Assembly: GCA_027621175.1 (NCBI GenBank)
Contig: JAQCCM010000002.1
Coordinates: 124,001-188,000 of the forward strand
Origin: Bacteroidota bacterium
GTDB taxonomy: Bacteria; Bacteroidota; Bacteroidia; Flavobacteriales; Flavobacteriaceae
Direction: 5' to 3'
DNA length: 64,000 nt
Shown here: positions 34,820 through 50,999 of the stretch, one piece after another
Layout of the letters: every line of letters starts with the position of its first letter
Numbering within the stretch: the stretch's first letter is position 1
Notes under the pieces: model-generated
Told to the model about the DNA's origin: nothing
Database searches by the model: none
The model's input: the letters and a program-made list of their open reading frames with translations, nothing else
Program-made: the position numbers and the translations under genes

Positions 34820-34892
34820 GACTTGGTAGCTCAGCTGGTAGAGCATCTCCCTTTTAAGGAGAGGGTCCTGGGTTCGAACCCCAGCCAAGTCA
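34820..34892 (+). tRNA. tRNA-Lys (TTT anticodon)
   Basis: GACTTGG acceptor pairs with CCAAGTC; anticodon loop CTTTTAA; GGTTCGAACCC T-arm. Confidence 0.95.
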
Positions 34893-34905
34893 CTTCTTTC
34901 CAAAA

Positions 34906-34991
34906 GCGCACGTGGCGGAACTGGTAGACGCGCTAGGTTGAGGGCCTAGTGGGAGTTATATCCCGTGGAGGTTCGATTCCTCTCGTGCGCA
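34906..34991 (+). tRNA. tRNA-Leu (GAG anticodon)
   Basis: GCGCACG/CGTGCGC acceptor, anticodon arm CTAGG-TTGAGGG-CCTAG, long variable arm. Confidence 0.93.
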
Positions 34992-35034
34992 CGTTATTTG
35001 CAACATTTTCAATGTTTTATAAATAATTTTTTTA

Positions 35035-35042
35035 TAACTTTG
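35035..35042 (+). promoter_or_regulatory. -7 promoter element TAACTTTG of the MerR regulator gene
   Basis: Matches TAnnTTTG. Confidence 0.5.
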
Positions 35043-35072
35043 TTTAAAATTGTTAAAAAAATATTAAACAAA
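35039..35072. promoter_or_regulatory. Candidate operator dyad TTTGTTTAA-N16-TTAAACAAA
   Basis: Perfect 9-nt arms at 35039-35047 and 35064-35072; same dyad with the same spacing at 43816-43849. Confidence 0.75.
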
Positions 35073-35977
35073 TGAATCGCGTAAAAAATAGTTTCGCCAT
35101 AAAAAACCTTGAGCATCTCTCTGGTATAAAGTCACACACGATTCGCATTTGGGAAAAGCGGTACAACCTCTTTGAGCCTGAGCGTACTGATACCAACATC
35201 AGGATGTATGACTTAGAAAATCTTCAAAAACTTCTAAACGTTACACTGCTTTACAACAACGGTTATAAGATTTCTAAAATCGCACGACTATCGCCACAAG
35301 AAGTAGCCGAAAACGTACACAACCTAACAATTAACAAATCTGCAGACGATTGGTCGATTGGTTTATTTAAGCTTGCGATGATAAACTTTGATCAGCGATT
35401 GTTTACCAAAACATTCAACGAACTTCTTGAACAATTTTCGTTTAGAGAAATCTTCAAAAATGTGTTTGTTCCTCTAATGAACGAACTTGGTGTCTTGTGG
35501 CAAACGAATTCCATCAGCCCATCGCATGAGCATTTTATCACTAGTTTGGTAAAGCAAAAAATTCACTCGATGTGTGAAGAACTTCAATTGCAAGACACCA
35601 AAAGAAAAGACAGACGTTTTGTTTTGTATTTGCCAGACAACGAAATTCACGAACTTGGTTTGTTGTACCTTCAATACGAAGTACTTAACAACGGTTTTCA
35701 ATGTGTTTTCTTAGGTCAGTCCGTTCCACTTGAAAGCCTGAAAAACCTTGTAGATATTGGAGAGCCTATTACGTTTTTATCCTATTTTACGGTTGAACCA
35801 GGTCAAGATAAAATTAATGCGTATTTAAATACTTTTTCATCTGAAATCATTGAAAACATTGAATGTGATTTATGGGTTTTAGGATATCAAGTTCAGTTTA
35901 TCAAGGGAGAGCTGCCAAACAAAATACGGACTTTCAACTCCATAGATGATGTAATTAAAATGTTGAGTTTTATTTAA
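35072..35977 (+). CDS. MerR-family regulator with cobalamin-binding domain (CarH/LitR-like predicted light sensor)
   Basis: N-terminal MerR HTH (FAIKNLEHLSGIKSHTIRIWEKRYNLFEPERTDTNIRMY); LW-QTNSISPSH-EH (W-x9-EH) and EIHELG (ExHxxG) motifs. Confidence 0.9.
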   Translation: MNRVKNSFAIKNLEHLSGIKSHTIRIWEKRYNLFEPERTDTNIRMYDLENLQKLLNVTLLYNNGYKISKIARLSPQEVAENVHNLTINKSADDWSIGLFKLAMINFDQRLFTKTFNELLEQFSFREIFKNVFVPLMNELGVLWQTNSISPSHEHFITSLVKQKIHSMCEELQLQDTKRKDRRFVLYLPDNEIHELGLLYLQYEVLNNGFQCVFLGQSVPLESLKNLVDIGEPITFLSYFTVEPGQDKINAYLNTFSSEIIENIECDLWVLGYQVQFIKGELPNKIRTFNSIDDVIKMLSFI

Positions 35978-35996
35978 AAAAAATTAAACGTTTTTT

Positions 35997-36045
35997 TTAA
36001 GTGTCAACAGTAAGTATATATATTTTCTGTTATATTTACACTTAA
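35997..36045. promoter_or_regulatory. Interrupted inverted repeat upstream of crtB
   Basis: TTAAGTGT (35997-36004)/ACACTTAA (36038-36045) plus AACAG (36006-36010)/CTGTT (36027-36031). Confidence 0.5.
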
Positions 36046-36058
36046 CAAAATTTTTCAA

Positions 36059-36898
36059 ATGAAAACGCTTTTTGATCAGGTGTCCCACCAATGTAGCAAA
36101 CTTGTTACAGAGTCATATAGCACATCATTTTCCCTGGCTACTCGTATGCTATCTAACGAAATACGGCAAGATATTTATAATATTTATGGATTTGTACGCT
36201 TTGCCGATGAAATCGTCGATACATTTCACCAATACGACAAACCTGTTTTGTTTGAGCGTTTTGAGCAAGATTTAGAACATGCGCTTCAAGATAAAATCAG
36301 TTTAAACCCTATCCTTAATAGCTTTCAAGAAACTGTGCATAAATACAATTTAGATCGTGAGCACATAAATGCTTTTATGCAGAGCATGAAATGGGATCTA
36401 TCTAAAAAAGTCTACAACTCTGAAAAAGATTACAAACAATACATTTACGGCTCTGCTGATGTGGTTGGCTTGATGTGTTTAAAGGTTTTTGTCAAAGGAG
36501 ATGAATTGCTCTTTGACACACTTAAAGAATCTGCCATGGCACTTGGGTCTGCCTTTCAAAAGGTTAATTTTTTACGTGACTTAAAGGACGATTTCGATCA
36601 CCTTGAGCGTACATATTTCCCAAATGTTGACATGAATTGTTTTGATGAAAATTCAAAGCAACTTATTATTGCAGAAATAGAAGCGGATTTCAAAAATGGC
36701 CTTTCTGGTATTTTTAGGCTCCCCGATGATGCAAAATTTGGCGTATATACCGCCTACAAATACTATATGCGTCTGCTTAAAAAACTTAAAAGAGTTCCTT
36801 CGACTCAAATAAAATCAAAGCGTATAAGAGTACCTAACTACCAAAAAGCAGATGTGCTTGCACGTTCGTTTATTCGTTATCAATTTAATGTCCTCTAA
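36059..36898 (+). CDS. crtB: Phytoene/squalene synthase family protein (phytoene synthase)
   Basis: SYSTSFSLATRML, YGFVRFADEIVDTF, ALGSAFQKVNFLRDLKDDFDHLERTYFP. Confidence 0.93.
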   Translation: MKTLFDQVSHQCSKLVTESYSTSFSLATRMLSNEIRQDIYNIYGFVRFADEIVDTFHQYDKPVLFERFEQDLEHALQDKISLNPILNSFQETVHKYNLDREHINAFMQSMKWDLSKKVYNSEKDYKQYIYGSADVVGLMCLKVFVKGDELLFDTLKESAMALGSAFQKVNFLRDLKDDFDHLERTYFPNVDMNCFDENSKQLIIAEIEADFKNGLSGIFRLPDDAKFGVYTAYKYYMRLLKKLKRVPSTQIKSKRIRVPNYQKADVLARSFIRYQFNVL

Positions 36899-36907
36899 AA
36901 AACATAC

Positions 36908-37354
36908 ATGAGTATTGTTGCCCAAATTTTTGTGTTCTTCTCTACATTTTTTGCAATGGAATTTATGGCATGGTTTACACACAAGTACGTCATGCACGGT
37001 TTTCTTTGGTCATTACATAAAGACCACCACCATAAAAACCATGATTCTTGGTTTGAACGCAACGATTTATTTTTTATTTTCTATGCTGTAGTCAGTGCTG
37101 GATGTGTCATTCTTTGGGGCGAATATAACTTTGCACCAGGGCTTGCCATTGGAATTGGAATATTCGCATATGGTCTCGCCTATTTTTTTGTGCATGATAT
37201 TTTTATTCATCAACGATTTAAAATTTGGCGCAATGCGAACAACCGCTATGCGCGAGGCGTACGCCGTGCGCACAAAATCCATCACAAACATCTTGGTAAA
37301 GAAAAAGGCGAGTGCTTTGGTATGTTGTGGGTACCCGTAAAGTATTTTAAATAG
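36908..37354 (+). CDS. crtZ: Beta-carotene hydroxylase
   Basis: Histidine clusters: FTHKYVMHG, HKDHHHKNH, HDIFIHQRF, RAHKIHHKHL. Confidence 0.93.
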   Translation: MSIVAQIFVFFSTFFAMEFMAWFTHKYVMHGFLWSLHKDHHHKNHDSWFERNDLFFIFYAVVSAGCVILWGEYNFAPGLAIGIGIFAYGLAYFFVHDIFIHQRFKIWRNANNRYARGVRRAHKIHHKHLGKEKGECFGMLWVPVKYFK

Positions 37355-43815: not shown

Positions 43816-43849
43816 TTTGTTTAACTTTTGTGCTACAAGCTTAAACAAA
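43816..43849. promoter_or_regulatory. Candidate operator dyad TTTGTTTAA-N16-TTAAACAAA at photolyase operon promoter
   Basis: Perfect 9-nt arms at 43816-43824 and 43841-43849; identical to the dyad at 35039-35072. Confidence 0.78.
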
Positions 43850-43854
43850 AAAGG

Positions 43855-43862
43855 TATATTTG
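43855..43862 (+). promoter_or_regulatory. -7 promoter element TATATTTG of the photolyase operon
   Basis: Matches TAnnTTTG 15 nt upstream of the first ATG. Confidence 0.65.
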
Positions 43863-43876
43863 CGTAAAACAACGCT

Positions 43877-44335
43877 ATGTACCAATACACCTCCAGACAA
43901 GAATTGTCCACCACCATGACACAAGCGTGGACGTTTCTATCTGACCCTAAAAACTTAAAACGCATTACCCCAGATTATATGGGGTTTGACATTATTTCTG
44001 GCGCAGAACGCAAGATGTTCCCGGGTCAAATTATCCAATATCGTCTTACGCCACTTTTGGGAATTCCTTTTAGGTGGGTAACTGAAATAACACATGTAGA
44101 AGAGGGTGCGTATTTTGTAGATGAGCAACGATTTGGTCCATATACTTTTTGGCATCATAAGCATTTTATTAAAAAAACGGAAAGCGGTGTTGTGATGGAA
44201 GATATCGTAGATTATAAGCTACCCCTTGGTCCATTGGGTTGGTTGGCGCATGTGCTTTTTGTGCGCGCAAAGGTCAAGCATATTTTTGATTACAGAGAAA
44301 AAGCACTTAACGAAATTTTTAATTCAACATCATGA
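43877..44335 (+). CDS. SRPBCC-family protein
   Basis: MTQAWTFLSDPKNLKRITPDYMGFDI...FWHHKHFIKKTESGVVMEDIVDYKLPLGPLGWLAH. Confidence 0.88.
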   Translation: MYQYTSRQELSTTMTQAWTFLSDPKNLKRITPDYMGFDIISGAERKMFPGQIIQYRLTPLLGIPFRWVTEITHVEEGAYFVDEQRFGPYTFWHHKHFIKKTESGVVMEDIVDYKLPLGPLGWLAHVLFVRAKVKHIFDYREKALNEIFNSTS

Positions 44336-45033
44336 GTAAAACATTTTTATTGATTGGCGGAAGCTATGGTATTGGCAGCCAAATTATTGACGAACTTCCT
44401 GCAGATGCAACCATTATTGTAGCATCTAGAACAAACGAAGGCTTGGCTGGAAAAAACGTGACACACATTCCTTTTGATGTGCTTCAAGACACCTTACCTT
44501 TAGACCAACTTCCTGCCGTAATAGACGGATTTGCATACTGCCCTGGCAGTATCAATTTGCGTCCATTCAAAGGATTAAAGCCAGAAGCATTTACAGATGA
44601 CTTTTCCATCAATGTAATGGGGGCAGTAAAAACATTACAGCAATTACAACCGCTATTGGCTGCAAGTGAGCAAGCAAGTGTGGTGCTTTTTAGCACTGTT
44701 GCTGTACAAACAGGTATGCCCTTTCACGCAAGTGTAGCGGCTTCAAAAGGAGCTATAGAGGGTCTTGGACGTTCCTTGGCAGCAGAATGGGCGCCCAAAG
44801 TTCGAGTGAATGTTATTGCACCATCTATAACAGAAACGCCTTTGGCAAATCGGTTTTTAAATAACGATGCAAAAAAGGAAAAAGCAGCACTAAGACATCC
44901 GCTAAAACGCATTGGAACCACACAAGATGTGGCACAATTGGCAGCGTTTTTATTGTCAGATAAAAGCAGCTGGATGACAGGGCAAGTATTAGGTTTGGAC
45001 GGCGGTATGTCATCTTTAAATGTAAATGGATGA
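44332..45033 (+). CDS. SDR-family oxidoreductase
   Basis: FLLIGGSYGIGSQI, ASKGAIEGLGRSLAAEWAPKVRVNVIAPS. Confidence 0.92.
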   Translation: MSKTFLLIGGSYGIGSQIIDELPADATIIVASRTNEGLAGKNVTHIPFDVLQDTLPLDQLPAVIDGFAYCPGSINLRPFKGLKPEAFTDDFSINVMGAVKTLQQLQPLLAASEQASVVLFSTVAVQTGMPFHASVAASKGAIEGLGRSLAAEWAPKVRVNVIAPSITETPLANRFLNNDAKKEKAALRHPLKRIGTTQDVAQLAAFLLSDKSSWMTGQVLGLDGGMSSLNVNG

Positions 45034-46322
45034 TATTATTTTGGTTTCGTCGCGATTTACGTGAAGCCGATAACGCAGGGTTATTTTATGCACTTTCAGA
45101 TGCAAATGAGGTACTACCCGCATTTGTTTTTGATGAAAACATCATCGACAAGCTCCCCAAAAACGATGCACGTGTAAGTTTTATCCATGAACACATCTCG
45201 AAGTTAGACCGTGTTTTCAGAGCACATGGTAGCGGAATGCTTGTCAAAAAAGGAAATCCTTCAGATTGTATTTCAGCGTGGTGTGAAGCGCATAACATTA
45301 CTGCTGTTTACACCAACGAAGATTATGAGCCATACGCGAGAGAACGAGACGCCGAAATACAACGCAAACTAGCAGCAATTGGAGTTACGTTCAAGACCTT
45401 TAAGGACCAAGTTCTTTTTGCACCCCACGAAGTACTCAAAAAAGATGGGACACCGTATAAAGTTTATACCCCTTATTCTCGAATATGGCTAGCTCAAATG
45501 GAAGAAATGGGCGTGCCAAATTTTCCTTCTGAAACTTTGCTTGACAATCTTTTTAAGTTTGAATTTGAGGATATTCCTTCTTTGAAAGAACTCGGATTTT
45601 TTAAAGGACAACATGAAATCCCAACTTCGAACGAATCCAAAAGCATGATGGATGCTTATGACGACACACGAAACTTTCCCTCCATGGATAGCACAAGTAA
45701 ATTGGGAGTCTATTTGCGTTTTGGCGCAGTGTCTATTCGAAAAGTTATTGAAAAAGCCCGTAAAAGCACGCAGCCTACTTTTTTAAAAGAATTGGTATGG
45801 CGAGAATTTTTTATGCAGATTTTATGGCATTATCCGCATACAACACAATCGAGTTTTAAACCGCAGTATGACCGGATTGAATGGCGGAATAACGAAGAAG
45901 ATTTTAAAAAATGGTGCGAGGGAAAAACAGGGTATCCGCTTGTAGATGCGGGGATGCGTGAGCTTAACCAAACGGGCTTTATGCACAATCGCGTCCGCAT
46001 GCTTGTAGGTAGTTTTTTATGCAAACATTTGCTTATTGATTGGCGCTGGGGCGAAGCCTATTTTGCTGAAAAACTTCTTGATTATGAGCAAGCCAGTAAT
46101 GTAGGGAATTGGCAATGGGTAGCTGGTAGCGGCGTAGACGCAGCTCCCTATTTCCGCGTATTCAATCCTACAGAGCAAGTAAAAAAGTTTGACAAAGACC
46201 ACAAATACATTCAAAAATGGGTGCCAGAGTATCAATCCTTGACTTATCCAAATCAAATGGTGGAGCATAAAATGGCCAGAGAACGCTGTTTGCAAACCTA
46301 CAAAGCTGGGTTAGTAACATGA
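45030..46322 (+). CDS. phr: Cryptochrome/photolyase family protein, class I CPD photolyase-like
   Basis: [55 protein letters not shown]. Confidence 0.93.
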
Positions 46323-46465
46323 AAGGCGTAAAAAAGGAACACTTGCCCCAAAAAATTTGTGTGGTATGCAAGCTTCCTTTTGTATGGCGTAAGAAATGGA
46401 GTAAGAATTGGGAACACGTAAAATATTGTAGCGAAAGATGCAGAAGGCAAAAACAACAGCAATAG
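46319..46465 (+). CDS. DUF2256 small zinc-ribbon-like protein (48 aa; absent from ORF track)
   Basis: [48 protein letters not shown]; CxxC...CxxxC; overlaps the photolyase stop by ATGA. Confidence 0.9.
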
Positions 46466-47736
46466 TTTGGTTTAGGAACGATTTACGTATCCGAGATCAA
46501 CAAGCACTTACACAAGCCACCTCGAAACATAATCATGTAATTGGATTCTATCATATTCCAGAAATATGGTTAAAGGAAACGCCATGGGGTTTCAAAAAAA
46601 TGGAAGCCTTTAGAGCGCAATTTCTGCTACAAACATTAGCCCAACTGCAAATAGATTTGAGGAAGCTTAACATCACGTTATGGGTTTCCGTTGGAAATTT
46701 GAAACAAACTTTACAACAGCTTCAAGAACAATATCAGGTCACAGACTTATACGGACAGCGGGAATGGACACAAGAAGAAATAAATGATGTAGCACAAATC
46801 CCTAATAACATCAAAGCGCACTGGAATTACGATCAGTTTTTATTTCATCCTGACGATATTCCTATGGAAGTTTCCAATATTCCAGAGGTGTTTACCGTCT
46901 TTAGAAAAAAATGTGAAAAACAAAGTCACGTTAGACCTCCGATAGGGATTCCTGATCCCATGCCAACTGAAAATCTTATACAGGAAAGTCCTGAGTTGCC
47001 TACCCTAGAAAAATTAGGCTATCAAAACCCCAGCAAAGACGCAAGAACTGCCATTCCATTTTCAGGAGGGGAAACGGAAGCGTGGGCACGTATCCAAGAA
47101 TATTTTTGGGACACCAAGCAATTGTCTTTCTATAAAAAAACACGAAACGGTTTATTGGGAAAAAAATACAGCTCTAAGCTGTCACTTTGGATGGCGTTTG
47201 GGTCTATATCGCCAAGATCGATTTATGCAGAAGTAAAAAAATACGAGAAAACAATTGCAAAAAACGAGTCCACCTATTGGCTGATATTTGAGCTTATATG
47301 GCGTGATTATTTTAAATACATCTCTTTAAAACACGGAGATAAAATTTTTAAAATAGGAGGAATTTTAGATAAATCTTACGATTGGAAAACGGATATAAGA
47401 CGTGTACAAAAATGGATTGAGGGTAACACACCCGAACCTTTTGTCAATGCAAACATGCGCGAATTGGCTTGCACAGGTTTTATGAGCAATCGCGGACGAC
47501 AAAACGTAGCGAGTTTTTTCAGTAAAGAATGGTATTTGGATTGGCGTATTGGCGCGGCCTATTTTGAAGCGATGCTCATTGATTATGATGTGCATAGTAA
47601 TTATGGAAACTGGATGTATAATGCAGGTGTGGGCAATGACCCAAGAGACAGGAAATTCCATATTTCGTGGCAAGCAGAACGTTACGACCCCAACAATACC
47701 TACCAAAAAACCTGGCTACAAACAACACTTTTCTAA
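46438..47736 (+). CDS. Cryptochrome DASH
   Basis: [57 protein letters not shown]. Confidence 0.92.
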
Positions 47737-49262
47737 TGGAAGTACGACTCATACTTGGCGATCAACTCAACAAAGAACACAGCTGGTTTATGGAACCCAA
47801 TAATCAGGTGTGCTATGTGATGTTTGAAATGCGTCAAGAAACAGATTATGTCCGTCATCATGTGCAAAAAGTTGTTGCCTTTTTTGCCGCCATGCGCCAA
47901 TTTGCACGAAAGCTGGAGGAAGACGGACATACCGTTATCTACTACACCATTGATGACCCCAACAACTTCCAAAACTTGACAAAAAACATCGAGAAAGTGC
48001 TTAAATTACTCCAAGCAACTTCTTTCGCCTACCAACTACCAGATGAATTTCGATTAGACGCACAACTCAAAAAATTTGGAAAATCACTAGATATCAAAGT
48101 AAAAACTTGCGATACAGAACATTTTTTGACGACTCGAACCGAGTTAGCCGAATTCTATGAAGGCAAAAAAGGGTTGGTTATGGAGTTTTTTTATCGCTAT
48201 ATGCGAAAAAAACACCAATATCTCATGGTGGACGGACAACCCGAAGGCGGCAGCTGGAACTACGATAAATTCAATCGAAATACGTGGAAAGGCGGCACCA
48301 TACCTCCGCCCTATCAGCCTGATATGACTTTGGCTAAAGAAATTTACAATCAAGTAGTTGCAGCAAAAATAGACACCATTGGAACATTTGATCCGACATC
48401 TTTTCTATTTGCGGTATCACGCGAAGAATCACTACATCAATTAGACTATTTCTGCGACCATTTGCTACAAGATTTTGGCACCTATCAAGATGCTATGCAT
48501 CAAGATGAAACGAATTTATTCCACGCCCGGATTTCTTTTAGTCTAAACATAAAACTCATCAGCCCCGATGAAGTAATTGAGCGCGCCATTGCCGCTTACC
48601 GAAATAATGAAGCGATAAGTCTTTCGCAAATTGAGGGTTTTGTACGTCAAATTTTAGGTTGGCGCGAATATATCAGAGGCTTGTATTGGAAAGAAATGCC
48701 GGAGTACAAACAAAAAAATGAGTTGAATAATTTTGGAAAACTTCCTGATTTCTATTGGACGGGAAAGACCAAAATGAATTGTCTTAAAACCAGTATCACC
48801 AATAGTTTGGAAAACGCTTATGCACACCACATTCAACGCTTGATGATTACGGGAAACTTTGCGCTGCTATTGCAAACCCATCCCGATGAAGTAGATGACT
48901 GGTATTTGGGCATTTATGCAGATGCTGTTGAATGGGTACAATTACCCAACACGCGCGGCATGAGTCAGTATGCCGATGGTGGCATAGTGGCAACTAAACC
49001 CTATGTCTCGTCGGGATCTTATGTCAATAAAATGAGTAATTACTGCAGCAATTGTAGTTATGACAAAAAGAAGCGCACGGGTGAAAATGCCTGTCCATTT
49101 AATAGCCTATACTGGAACTTCTTGGATGATAAAAAAGAAGAATTAAAAGGGAATCACAGGATGGGGATGATGTTCAACTTACTAGGGAAAATCAAACCTG
49201 AAGAATTGGCAGAAATTAAGGCACGTGCCTATGAAATTATAGAAAACCCAGATGCATTCTAA
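47736..49262 (+). CDS. FeS-type bacterial cryptochrome/(6-4) photolyase (PhrB-like)
   Basis: LILGDQLNKEHSWF; C-terminal CSNCSYDKKKRTGENACPFNSLYW cluster; start at [10 protein letters not shown] (47736), sharing 1 nt with the preceding stop. Confidence 0.92.
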   Translation: MEVRLILGDQLNKEHSWFMEPNNQVCYVMFEMRQETDYVRHHVQKVVAFFAAMRQFARKLEEDGHTVIYYTIDDPNNFQNLTKNIEKVLKLLQATSFAYQLPDEFRLDAQLKKFGKSLDIKVKTCDTEHFLTTRTELAEFYEGKKGLVMEFFYRYMRKKHQYLMVDGQPEGGSWNYDKFNRNTWKGGTIPPPYQPDMTLAKEIYNQVVAAKIDTIGTFDPTSFLFAVSREESLHQLDYFCDHLLQDFGTYQDAMHQDETNLFHARISFSLNIKLISPDEVIERAIAAYRNNEAISLSQIEGFVRQILGWREYIRGLYWKEMPEYKQKNELNNFGKLPDFYWTGKTKMNCLKTSITNSLENAYAHHIQRLMITGNFALLLQTHPDEVDDWYLGIYADAVEWVQLPNTRGMSQYADGGIVATKPYVSSGSYVNKMSNYCSNCSYDKKKRTGENACPFNSLYWNFLDDKKEELKGNHRMGMMFNLLGKIKPEELAEIKARAYEIIENPDAF

Positions 49263-50724
49263 ACCAACAATACATGTTTTTTGGTTTAAGCGTGACTTGC
49301 GTATCCTAGATAATGAAGGGCTTCAAAATGCTATTGAATCCAACACTCCCCTCCTCTTACTTTATATTTTTGAGCCCAGCTTGGAGAAGAACCCGCACTA
49401 TCACAAACGGCATTGGAACTTTATTGCGCAATCCATTGAAAATCTAAATCAAGAATTAAATCCATACAAAACCAAAATACATTGTGTTCGTGGTGAAGCT
49501 ACTGAGGTATTGGAGGAATTAGGCAAGACCTGGCATATAAAAACGCTTTTTTCGATGCAAGAAACAGGCTTAAATTGTACTTATGATAGAGATAAAAAAG
49601 TAAAAAAATGGTGTGATTCAAAAAAAGTACATTGGGTAGAGCACATCAATAATGGGGTCTTTCGTGGATTGGCAAACAGAGCACATTGGCGGGACTACTG
49701 GACAAACTATATGATGCAATCCATAAAACCATTTACGGCTACTGAAAACGATTTTGTGCCTATTGAGGATATACAACTTAAAGAGCAGGCGCTCCAACCC
49801 AAAAAAATAGCGGGTATTCAAGAAGGAGGAACTAAAAAAGGGATAGCCTACTTGGAAAGCTTCTTAAAAACACGTCATAAAAAATACCAACAGTCGATTT
49901 CAAAACCGGAGGCAGCGCGGTTACATTGCGGGCGTGTGTCGCCCTATTTGGCATGGGGAAATCTTTCTGTACGCTATGTATGGCAACGGGCAAAACAAGC
50001 AAAAACCCTAGGAGCAAGTGCCTTCCAAATCAATGCGTTTACGTCAAGACTGCGCTGGCAAGCACATTTTATTCAAAAATTTGAAATGGAAACTCAAATG
50101 GAGTTTAGAAGCGTAAATAAAGGGTATCACAACATAAACAAATCCATAAACACAAACTTTATCGACGCATGGAAACAAGGCAAAACCGGCTATCCATTAG
50201 TGGATGCGTGTATGCGTTGTGTGGTAGAGACGGGATATTTAAATTTTAGAATGCGTGCCATGGTGGTATCGTTTTTCACCCATCATTTATGGCAACCTTG
50301 GCAAGCGGGCGCACAATTCTTAGGGCGTCAGTTTTTAGATTTTGAACCCGGTATCCATTACCCACAATTTCAAATGCAAGCAGGAGAAACAGGCATTAAT
50401 ATGGTGCGAATTTACAACCCTACAAAAAATGCCTTAGAACACGATCCTGATGGAAATTTTGTTCGAAAATGGGTTCCTGAATTAGCAGAATTGCCCACGG
50501 CATTTGTACTTGAACCGTGGACCATGACCGAAATTGAACTACAGGGCTATGGCTTTGTTTTAGGGGAAAATTACCCAAAACCAATCATAGACATTAAAAA
50601 AACCTACAAGTATGCCTCAAACGTTTTATGGCAAATGCGACGCAATGCCATTGTCCGCCATGAAAGTAGGCGTATTGTGGCAACACATACGTTGCCTGAC
50701 AGAGAAAATATTATGGACGCATGA
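49252..50724 (+). CDS. Divergent cryptochrome/photolyase-like FAD-binding protein
   Basis: VFWFKRDLRILDNEGL N-terminus; [18 protein letters not shown]-pocket segment FLDFEPGIHYPQFQMQAGETGIN. Confidence 0.88.
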   Translation: MHSKPTIHVFWFKRDLRILDNEGLQNAIESNTPLLLLYIFEPSLEKNPHYHKRHWNFIAQSIENLNQELNPYKTKIHCVRGEATEVLEELGKTWHIKTLFSMQETGLNCTYDRDKKVKKWCDSKKVHWVEHINNGVFRGLANRAHWRDYWTNYMMQSIKPFTATENDFVPIEDIQLKEQALQPKKIAGIQEGGTKKGIAYLESFLKTRHKKYQQSISKPEAARLHCGRVSPYLAWGNLSVRYVWQRAKQAKTLGASAFQINAFTSRLRWQAHFIQKFEMETQMEFRSVNKGYHNINKSINTNFIDAWKQGKTGYPLVDACMRCVVETGYLNFRMRAMVVSFFTHHLWQPWQAGAQFLGRQFLDFEPGIHYPQFQMQAGETGINMVRIYNPTKNALEHDPDGNFVRKWVPELAELPTAFVLEPWTMTEIELQGYGFVLGENYPKPIIDIKKTYKYASNVLWQMRRNAIVRHESRRIVATHTLPDRENIMDA

Positions 50725-50999
50725 AAAGAAAACTCACAGAAATAGAAATTGATAGGATTATTGAAATGGGTTGGGAAGATCGTACCCCGTTTGATGCCAT
50801 AAAAATGCAATTTGGACTAAAGGAACAAGAGGTGATAACCATTATGCGACGTAACATGAAACCAAATAGTTTTAAGTTATGGCGAAAAAGAGTTCAAGGA
50901 AGAAAAACCAAACATTTAAAAAAGCGAACAGACGAAGTTGGACGATTTAAATGTTCCCGTCAAAAAGGTATTAGCAACAATAAGGTTTCTAAACGCTAG
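50721..50999 (+). CDS. TIGR03643/DUF2805 family protein
   Basis: LTEIEIDRIIEMGWEDRTPFDAIKMQFGLKEQEVITIMRRNMKPNSFKLWRKRVQGR; recognised photolyase-associated family. Confidence 0.88.
   Translation: MKRKLTEIEIDRIIEMGWEDRTPFDAIKMQFGLKEQEVITIMRRNMKPNSFKLWRKRVQGRKTKHLKKRTDEVGRFKCSRQKGISNNKVSKR

Follow-up and report, generated by a model that had tools for sequence, protein, structure and literature searches.

Members of the Flavobacteriaceae are among the most abundant heterotrophs of the sunlit ocean, and little is known of the switch that governs their pigment and photorepair genes. The stretch of flavobacterial DNA analysed here (64,000 nucleotides, referred to as the window; features given below as start..end lie on its forward strand) contains a gene with an ATG start at 35072..35977 that encodes a MerR-family regulator of 301 residues, and the question it raises is whether this protein senses light through bound cobalamin. 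We consider it likely that the regulator is a CarH-type adenosylcobalamin (AdoCbl) photoreceptor and repressor, in a variant form present across the order Flavobacteriales; AdoCbl binding, light switching, operator binding and repression are features that we infer from the sequence and from a structural model.

The protein consists of an N-terminal winged helix, a four-helix cap and a Rossmann half. Its recognition helix carries the motif RIWEKRY (35144..35164), invariant in 45 homologues, which corresponds to the RxWERRY motif of CarH and CarA (PMC9304148). An earlier note on this DNA had reported both hallmark motifs of an AdoCbl photoreceptor, and on re-reading the sequence the open reading frame, the Trp, Glu and His codons and the start of EIHELG were all found as given there. 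The first motif, Wx9EH (35498..35533), is formed by W143 (codon 35498), the nine residues QTNSISPSH, E153 (35528) and H154 (35531), which would cap the adenosyl group as in CarH; the second, ExHxxG (EIHELG, 35642..35659; E191, H193 and G196), is that of the lower axial cobalamin ligand. CarH is defined by Wx9EH together with D/ExHx2G/P-x41-SxT/V-x22-27-GG (PMC8156234, PMC9304148), so that the observation held for Wx9EH and the first half of the B12 motif but not for the second half, which is degenerate here (S237-Y-F...G271-Y272, 35780..35887, in place of SxT/V...GG). Because the residues after ExHxxG read x40-SYF-x31-GY, the published definition makes this sequence a CarH-like variant and not a textbook CarH. 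A further difference lies directly after the Trp, where Q144 (35501..35503) takes the place of Thermus CarH His132, the upper ligand in the light state. The SignatureFinder signature of cobalamin photoreceptors comprises GxxW, EH, GxxH and GxxxP; the regulator contains GxxW (G140-W143), EH and GxxxP (G215-P219, which we placed by matching it to the position of Thermus G199-P203), and reads NEIH at the GxxH position, with the axial His kept.

Family models and fold prediction both point towards CarH. Pfam matches above cut-off are MerR_1 (49 bits) and the four-helix B12-binding_2, and the Rossmann B12-binding model PF02310 found no match in the regulator. The best family model is the NCBIfam CarH equivalog, at 71.3 bits, which is below its cut-off of 400. 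Thermus LitR/CarH entries are the best relatives in a sequence search of the PDB (3whp, E 6e-13; 5c8d, E 7e-13). An AlphaFold2 model built from 45 homologues (pLDDT 88.6, pTM 0.83) gave top Foldseek matches that are all Thermus CarH (5c8e/5c8d), with CtMerR (8jbs) also among the matches. The comparison with Thermus CarH that the earlier note had suggested as a check thus agrees with its proposal, in that the predicted four-helix cap and Rossmann fold superimpose with a TM-score of about 0.8 for the cobalamin domain.

Among 45 aligned Flavobacteriaceae homologues W143, E153, H154, E191 and H193 are invariant. When the 203 columns of the cobalamin-binding half were ranked by conservation in 68 homologues of the order from outside the window's genus, these residues came 12th, 1st, 8th, 5th and 11th respectively, compared with 39th for the Gln144 position, 61st for the Ser of SxT/V (50% conserved order-wide) and 187th for the second Gly of GG (the Y272 column). 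Judged by these alignments, the Wx9EH and ExHxxG residues exceed chance occurrence; the residues predicted to contact the adenosyl group and the cobalt have been retained, and the tail-binding GG and the Thermus light-state His have not. The residue after the Trp is Gln in 42 of the 45 homologues, His in two and Leu in one, and 80 named Flavobacteriaceae loci gave a similar picture (WQx8EH in 77, WHx8EH in two, both from Kordia, and WLx8EH in one), with ExHxxG in 79. Two CarH elements are missing clade-wide, the terminal GG of the classic motif (GY in the regulator) and the His beside the Trp (Gln in the regulator). The gene itself was found in 16 of 17 genomes of the window's genus, all of them incomplete MAGs (64-89%), the other copies being 81-94% identical to the one in the window, and a profile search of 148 genomes from across the order recovered it in 71, almost every Flavobacteriaceae genome among them. 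Two contigs, one titled Klebsiella pneumoniae and the other Rhizobium MAG (L188 and L193), also carry a clear Flavobacteriaceae carH, the former together with crt genes; these are probably misnamed bins.

What the regulator might bind is suggested by a perfect 9-bp inverted repeat, TTTGTTTAA-N16-TTAAACAAA (operator 1, 35039..35072, 18/18 positions), which lies over the regulator promoter, extends to the first nucleotide of the start codon and is conserved in the genus. It overlaps a -7 element of the Bacteroidota type, TAACTTTG (35035..35042). A second perfect copy (operator 2, 43816..43849, 18/18) is located upstream of an operon of photolyase genes, just 5' of the -7 element TATATTTG (43855..43862). 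These are the only two perfect copies in the window, the next best site scoring 14/18 and Markov controls 14-15. In 65 of the 80 named loci TAnnTTTG followed by TTTAA is found upstream of carH, against 8 of 1454 occurrences of TAnnTTTG elsewhere in the same loci; in the window this extended element supplies one arm of operator 1. An exact-pattern count of TTTGTnnAA-Nx-TTnnACAAA over 67 order-level loci yielded 34 sites with N16, six with N17 and two with all other spacers from 4 to 35 together (Markov controls 0). In other Flavobacteriaceae the right arm of the carH site is the start-codon region ATGAACAAY, and outside the carH promoter there are 29 N16 sites matching at least 16/18 positions, compared with 0-6 for each other spacer; 27 of the 29 precede crtI or crtB. 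Order-wide, the N16 repeat is encountered before crtI, carH, SDR/SRPBCC or ECF-sigma genes. The CarH half-site nAnnTnnACAn (PMC8156234) has the core TnnACA, which is present in its arms. We also considered a direct-repeat operator (TnnACA at 11-bp spacing) upstream of carH, but no 11-bp enrichment stood out; in place of the tandem 11-bp direct repeats nAnnTnnACAn of CarH operators, the N16 inverted repeat emerged. Relative to the -7 box the operator occurs in three registers (left arm over the box, right arm adjacent to it, or upstream), an arrangement of overlapping or abutting sites that fits repression by occlusion. In a group of families (loci L071-L093) an ECF sigma gene stands beside the CarH-like gene with the operator in front, which resembles light-responsive LitR-sigma cascades.

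The genes that follow the regulator are carotenogenic. Phytoene synthase CrtB is encoded at 36059..36898 (Pfam SQS_PSY, 162 bits), and the next gene (36908..37354) encodes a His-box protein that we name beta-carotene hydroxylase CrtZ-like from synteny and motifs only, as it has no Pfam or NCBIfam match; it is conserved as the third gene of the cluster. In most of the 80 named loci crtI-crtB-crtZ is linked to the regulator. The window's genus has the order carH-crtB-crtZ, in which crtI is not beside crtB, unlike in most Flavobacteriaceae, and crtI was found neither in the window nor in the genus loci examined. No perfect operator precedes crtB in this genus; the gap between carH and crtB (35978-36058) contains a conserved TTATATTTACA and no full operator. 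Genes for tRNA-Lys and tRNA-Leu are located directly upstream of the regulator (34820-34992), and the genus as well as several other pelagic flavobacteria likewise have tRNA-Leu 5' of it.

The operon behind operator 2 (43877-50999) comprises seven genes, four of them of the photolyase/cryptochrome family. It begins with an SRPBCC-like protein (43877..44335, named by inspection, without a Pfam match) and a short-chain dehydrogenase (44332..45033, Pfam adh_short_C2), which are followed by a DNA photolyase (45030..46322, FAD_binding_7 and DNA_photolyase), a cryptochrome DASH (46438..47736, TIGR02765 at 505.9 bits against a cut-off of 317), a deoxyribodipyrimidine photolyase-related protein (47667..49262, Pfam DPRP PF04244; this is the open reading frame as listed, and the real start is probably further in), a further cryptochrome/photolyase family protein (49252..50724, Pfam FAD_binding_7) and a TIGR03643/DUF2805 protein (50721..50999). 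The repeat is found in all nine genus relatives examined, some 28-30 bp upstream of the orthologous SRPBCC gene; the spacer sequences diverge, and in one relative the spacer is N17.

These observations suggest a mechanism close to that of CarH. In the dark, AdoCbl would be held between the four-helix cap, whose Trp143, Glu153 and His154 would surround the adenosyl moiety, and the Rossmann half, with His193 under the cobalt. The holo-oligomer would then occupy TTTGTTTAA-N16-TTAAACAAA and cover its own promoter and that of the crt operon, which is crtI-crtB-crtZ at loci with a linked crtI, and, in the window's genus, also the promoter of the SRPBCC-SDR-photolyase/cryptochrome operon. AdoCbl is intrinsically photolabile, whether free or bound, and blue or green light would break the Co-C bond, so that the adenosyl group is lost and the oligomer dissociates, permitting expression of the carotenoid and photorepair genes.

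Several features of the protein count against this scheme. Both GG and the Ser help to bind cobalamin in CarH and MetH; here GG is lost, with few columns less conserved than that of its second Gly, and conservation of the Ser is only 50% order-wide. The dimer salt bridge R176-D201 of the Thermus protein is replaced by I192-S217 and G160 is absent, although G192 is kept as G208, and with these losses oligomerisation may differ. The inverted-repeat form of the operator, the lack of a perfect site before crtB in this genus, the incompleteness of the genus MAGs and the gene content of the genome G028 (below) also weigh against it. Together with the change of H132 to Gln in 42 of 45 homologues, and hence the lack of a bis-His switch, the altered interface residues could be taken to indicate a sensor of AdoCbl status, which at high AdoCbl levels represses the crt and photolyase genes and for which light is not the physiological or releasing signal. 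We regard this as improbable, given that the targets are photoprotective (carotenoids and four genes of the photolyase/cryptochrome family) and the cofactor is photolabile by nature. The experimental record on the His is divided: Thermus CarH H132A remains mostly tetrameric after light (PMC10442372), but CtMerR, which has Arg at this position, is tetrameric with AdoCbl and breaks up into monomers in light (PMC11796333). Since many but not all CarH proteins have the His after the Trp (PMC9304148), and since CtMerR dissociates without it, its loss is not decisive. It is possible that the light state of the flavobacterial protein resembles that of CtMerR, with a water-mediated contact from the EH glutamate, and not the bis-His form.

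It might also be argued that the shared inverted repeat is the site of another light- or stress-responsive regulator and that the CarH-like protein controls something else. This is improbable, as the repeat is autogenous to carH across the order and bears the CarH half-site core. Furthermore, the arm pairs co-vary symmetrically, TTTGTTTAA/TTAAACAAA being exchanged in one set of families for TTTGTATAA/TTATACAAA (at sites preceding SRPBCC or SDR genes), and in these same families the recognition helix of the CarH-like protein shifts, by eye, from KAHT to xK with two hydrophobic residues.

A third possibility is a CarA-like protein that binds its operator without AdoCbl and receives the light signal through another protein. 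The clade-wide degeneration of the second half of the B12 motif and the lack of a PF02310 match would be in keeping with this, but CarA is marked by loss of the Trp (PMC9304148), whereas the flavobacterial proteins keep Trp, Glu and His almost without exception amid a variable domain, which is not expected of a B12-independent protein. The B12 economy of the genus also makes the CarA-like reading quite unlikely, as uptake and adenosylation are retained in the apparent absence of methylmalonyl-CoA mutase. The mutase was found in none of the 17 genus genomes and a PduO-type adenosyltransferase in 16; in the order-wide sample the two nearly always occur together, so that a genus with the adenosyltransferase only is unusual. 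Each of the 17 genomes has one cobalamin riboswitch, which in the window's genome adjoins a gene for a BtuB-like receptor. MetH, present in eight of 17, is the only B12 Rossmann protein found in the genus. PF02310 matches of 493 residues proved not to be a further B12 protein, being IMP dehydrogenase, an assignment made in the window's genome, and an NrdJ-like match in that genome, which has a class I ribonucleotide reductase, is its NrdA of class I, encoded next to NrdB. None of the 17 genomes has MetE, which is therefore of no help in establishing that the absence of MetH is real; the patchy distribution of methionine synthesis perhaps reflects methionine auxotrophy, or gaps in the MAGs. A search of these incomplete genomes that covered the mutase, ribonucleotide reductase, B12 Rossmann proteins and cobalamin riboswitches left no users of AdoCbl other than the regulator and the riboswitch. 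The regulator is not the sole B12 user overall, given the riboswitch in every genome and MetH in eight. The joint absence of adenosyltransferase and regulator from one genome (G012) was set aside as evidence, since crtB is gone too and an assembly gap may be responsible. A single-contig genome of 1.9 Mb from the order sample (G028, family f12) has the adenosyltransferase without the mutase and without a CarH-like gene.

That the protein is a classical metal, redox or drug sensor of the MerR type, acting as an activator, is scarcely credible: a MerR DNA-binding domain and an inverted-repeat operator are typical of such proteins, but the C-terminal half is predicted to fold as a CarH cobalamin domain, no Cys metal site was seen in the regulator, and three operator registers fit occlusion and do not fit promoter twisting.

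The earlier preference for a B12-based light sensor over CarA-like or metal- and redox-sensing proteins is thus supported in its direction by the fold, the AdoCbl-contact residues including the Trp, the carotenoid synteny, the operator shared with the photolyase operon and the retention of adenosyltransferase without mutase, with AdoCbl binding and the response to light as predicted properties. We lean towards a wider interpretation of a likely CarH-type photoreceptor, namely that Flavobacteriales have, across the order, B12 photoreceptors without a bis-His switch or a GG pocket, which act through an undescribed N16 operator on a single photoprotection regulon (carotenoids, photolyases/cryptochromes and, for certain families, an ECF sigma factor); and that proteins of one streamlined marine genus now need AdoCbl mainly for sensing light, the purpose for which import and adenosylation are largely kept. 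If this is correct, one B12-based switch accounts for the light control of carotenoids and photolyases order-wide, its operator can be searched for to define the regulon in any Flavobacteriales genome, and the supply of B12 is predicted to set the light response. These proteins would also be natural test cases for the need of bis-His ligation in CarH-type signalling, and a marine genus without methylmalonyl-CoA mutase would be maintaining AdoCbl synthesis mainly to sense light.

CarH-like genes in Bacteroidota have been noticed before. In the zeaxanthin producer GF1 a MerR/B12-binding gene lies upstream of the crt genes and photo-oxidative regulation was suggested (PMC6974559); this is the same gene in the same cluster, and the GF1 strain record is one of our loci (L170). 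The accessible text of that paper contains no analysis of motif, operator, photolyases or B12 economy. Neither the altered motif nor the operator nor the photolyase link was described in the literature that we searched, and no experiment on any Flavobacteriales member was found there. These three features are apparently undescribed, although this is not proof of novelty, as most subscription papers lie outside the coverage of the search.

Compared with known systems, the regulator is most similar to CarH/class I LitR of Thermus thermophilus, Bacillus megaterium and Myxococcus xanthus, with which it shares the domain order, predicted fold, Wx9EH, ExHxxG, the RxWE(K/R)RY helix, linkage to carotenoid genes, the TnnACA core and an operator placed over the promoter. 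It differs from the Thermus protein, to which it is about 23% identical, in having no GG and SxF for SxT/V, in the Gln that replaces His132 in most members, and in the missing R176-D201 bridge and G160; its 16-bp-spaced inverted repeat stands in place of the 11-bp direct repeats of known CarH operators. Class II-V LitR and MlrA-type MerR proteins have the MerR DNA-binding domain in common with it, and class II LitR also regulates photolyase and other light-induced genes, but retains only the four-helix part. CarA of Myxococcus xanthus is likewise a MerR and cobalamin-domain paralogue that controls carotenoids through a similar recognition helix; unlike the regulator, in which the Trp is present in 45/45 homologues, it lacks the Trp of Wx9EH and is B12-independent. 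CtMerR of Chloracidobacterium thermophilum (PDB 8JBS/8JBT) combines a MerR and a cobalamin domain in the same way and similarly dispenses with the light-state His, although it has Arg where the flavobacterial protein has Gln and keeps GxxH where the latter has NEIH.
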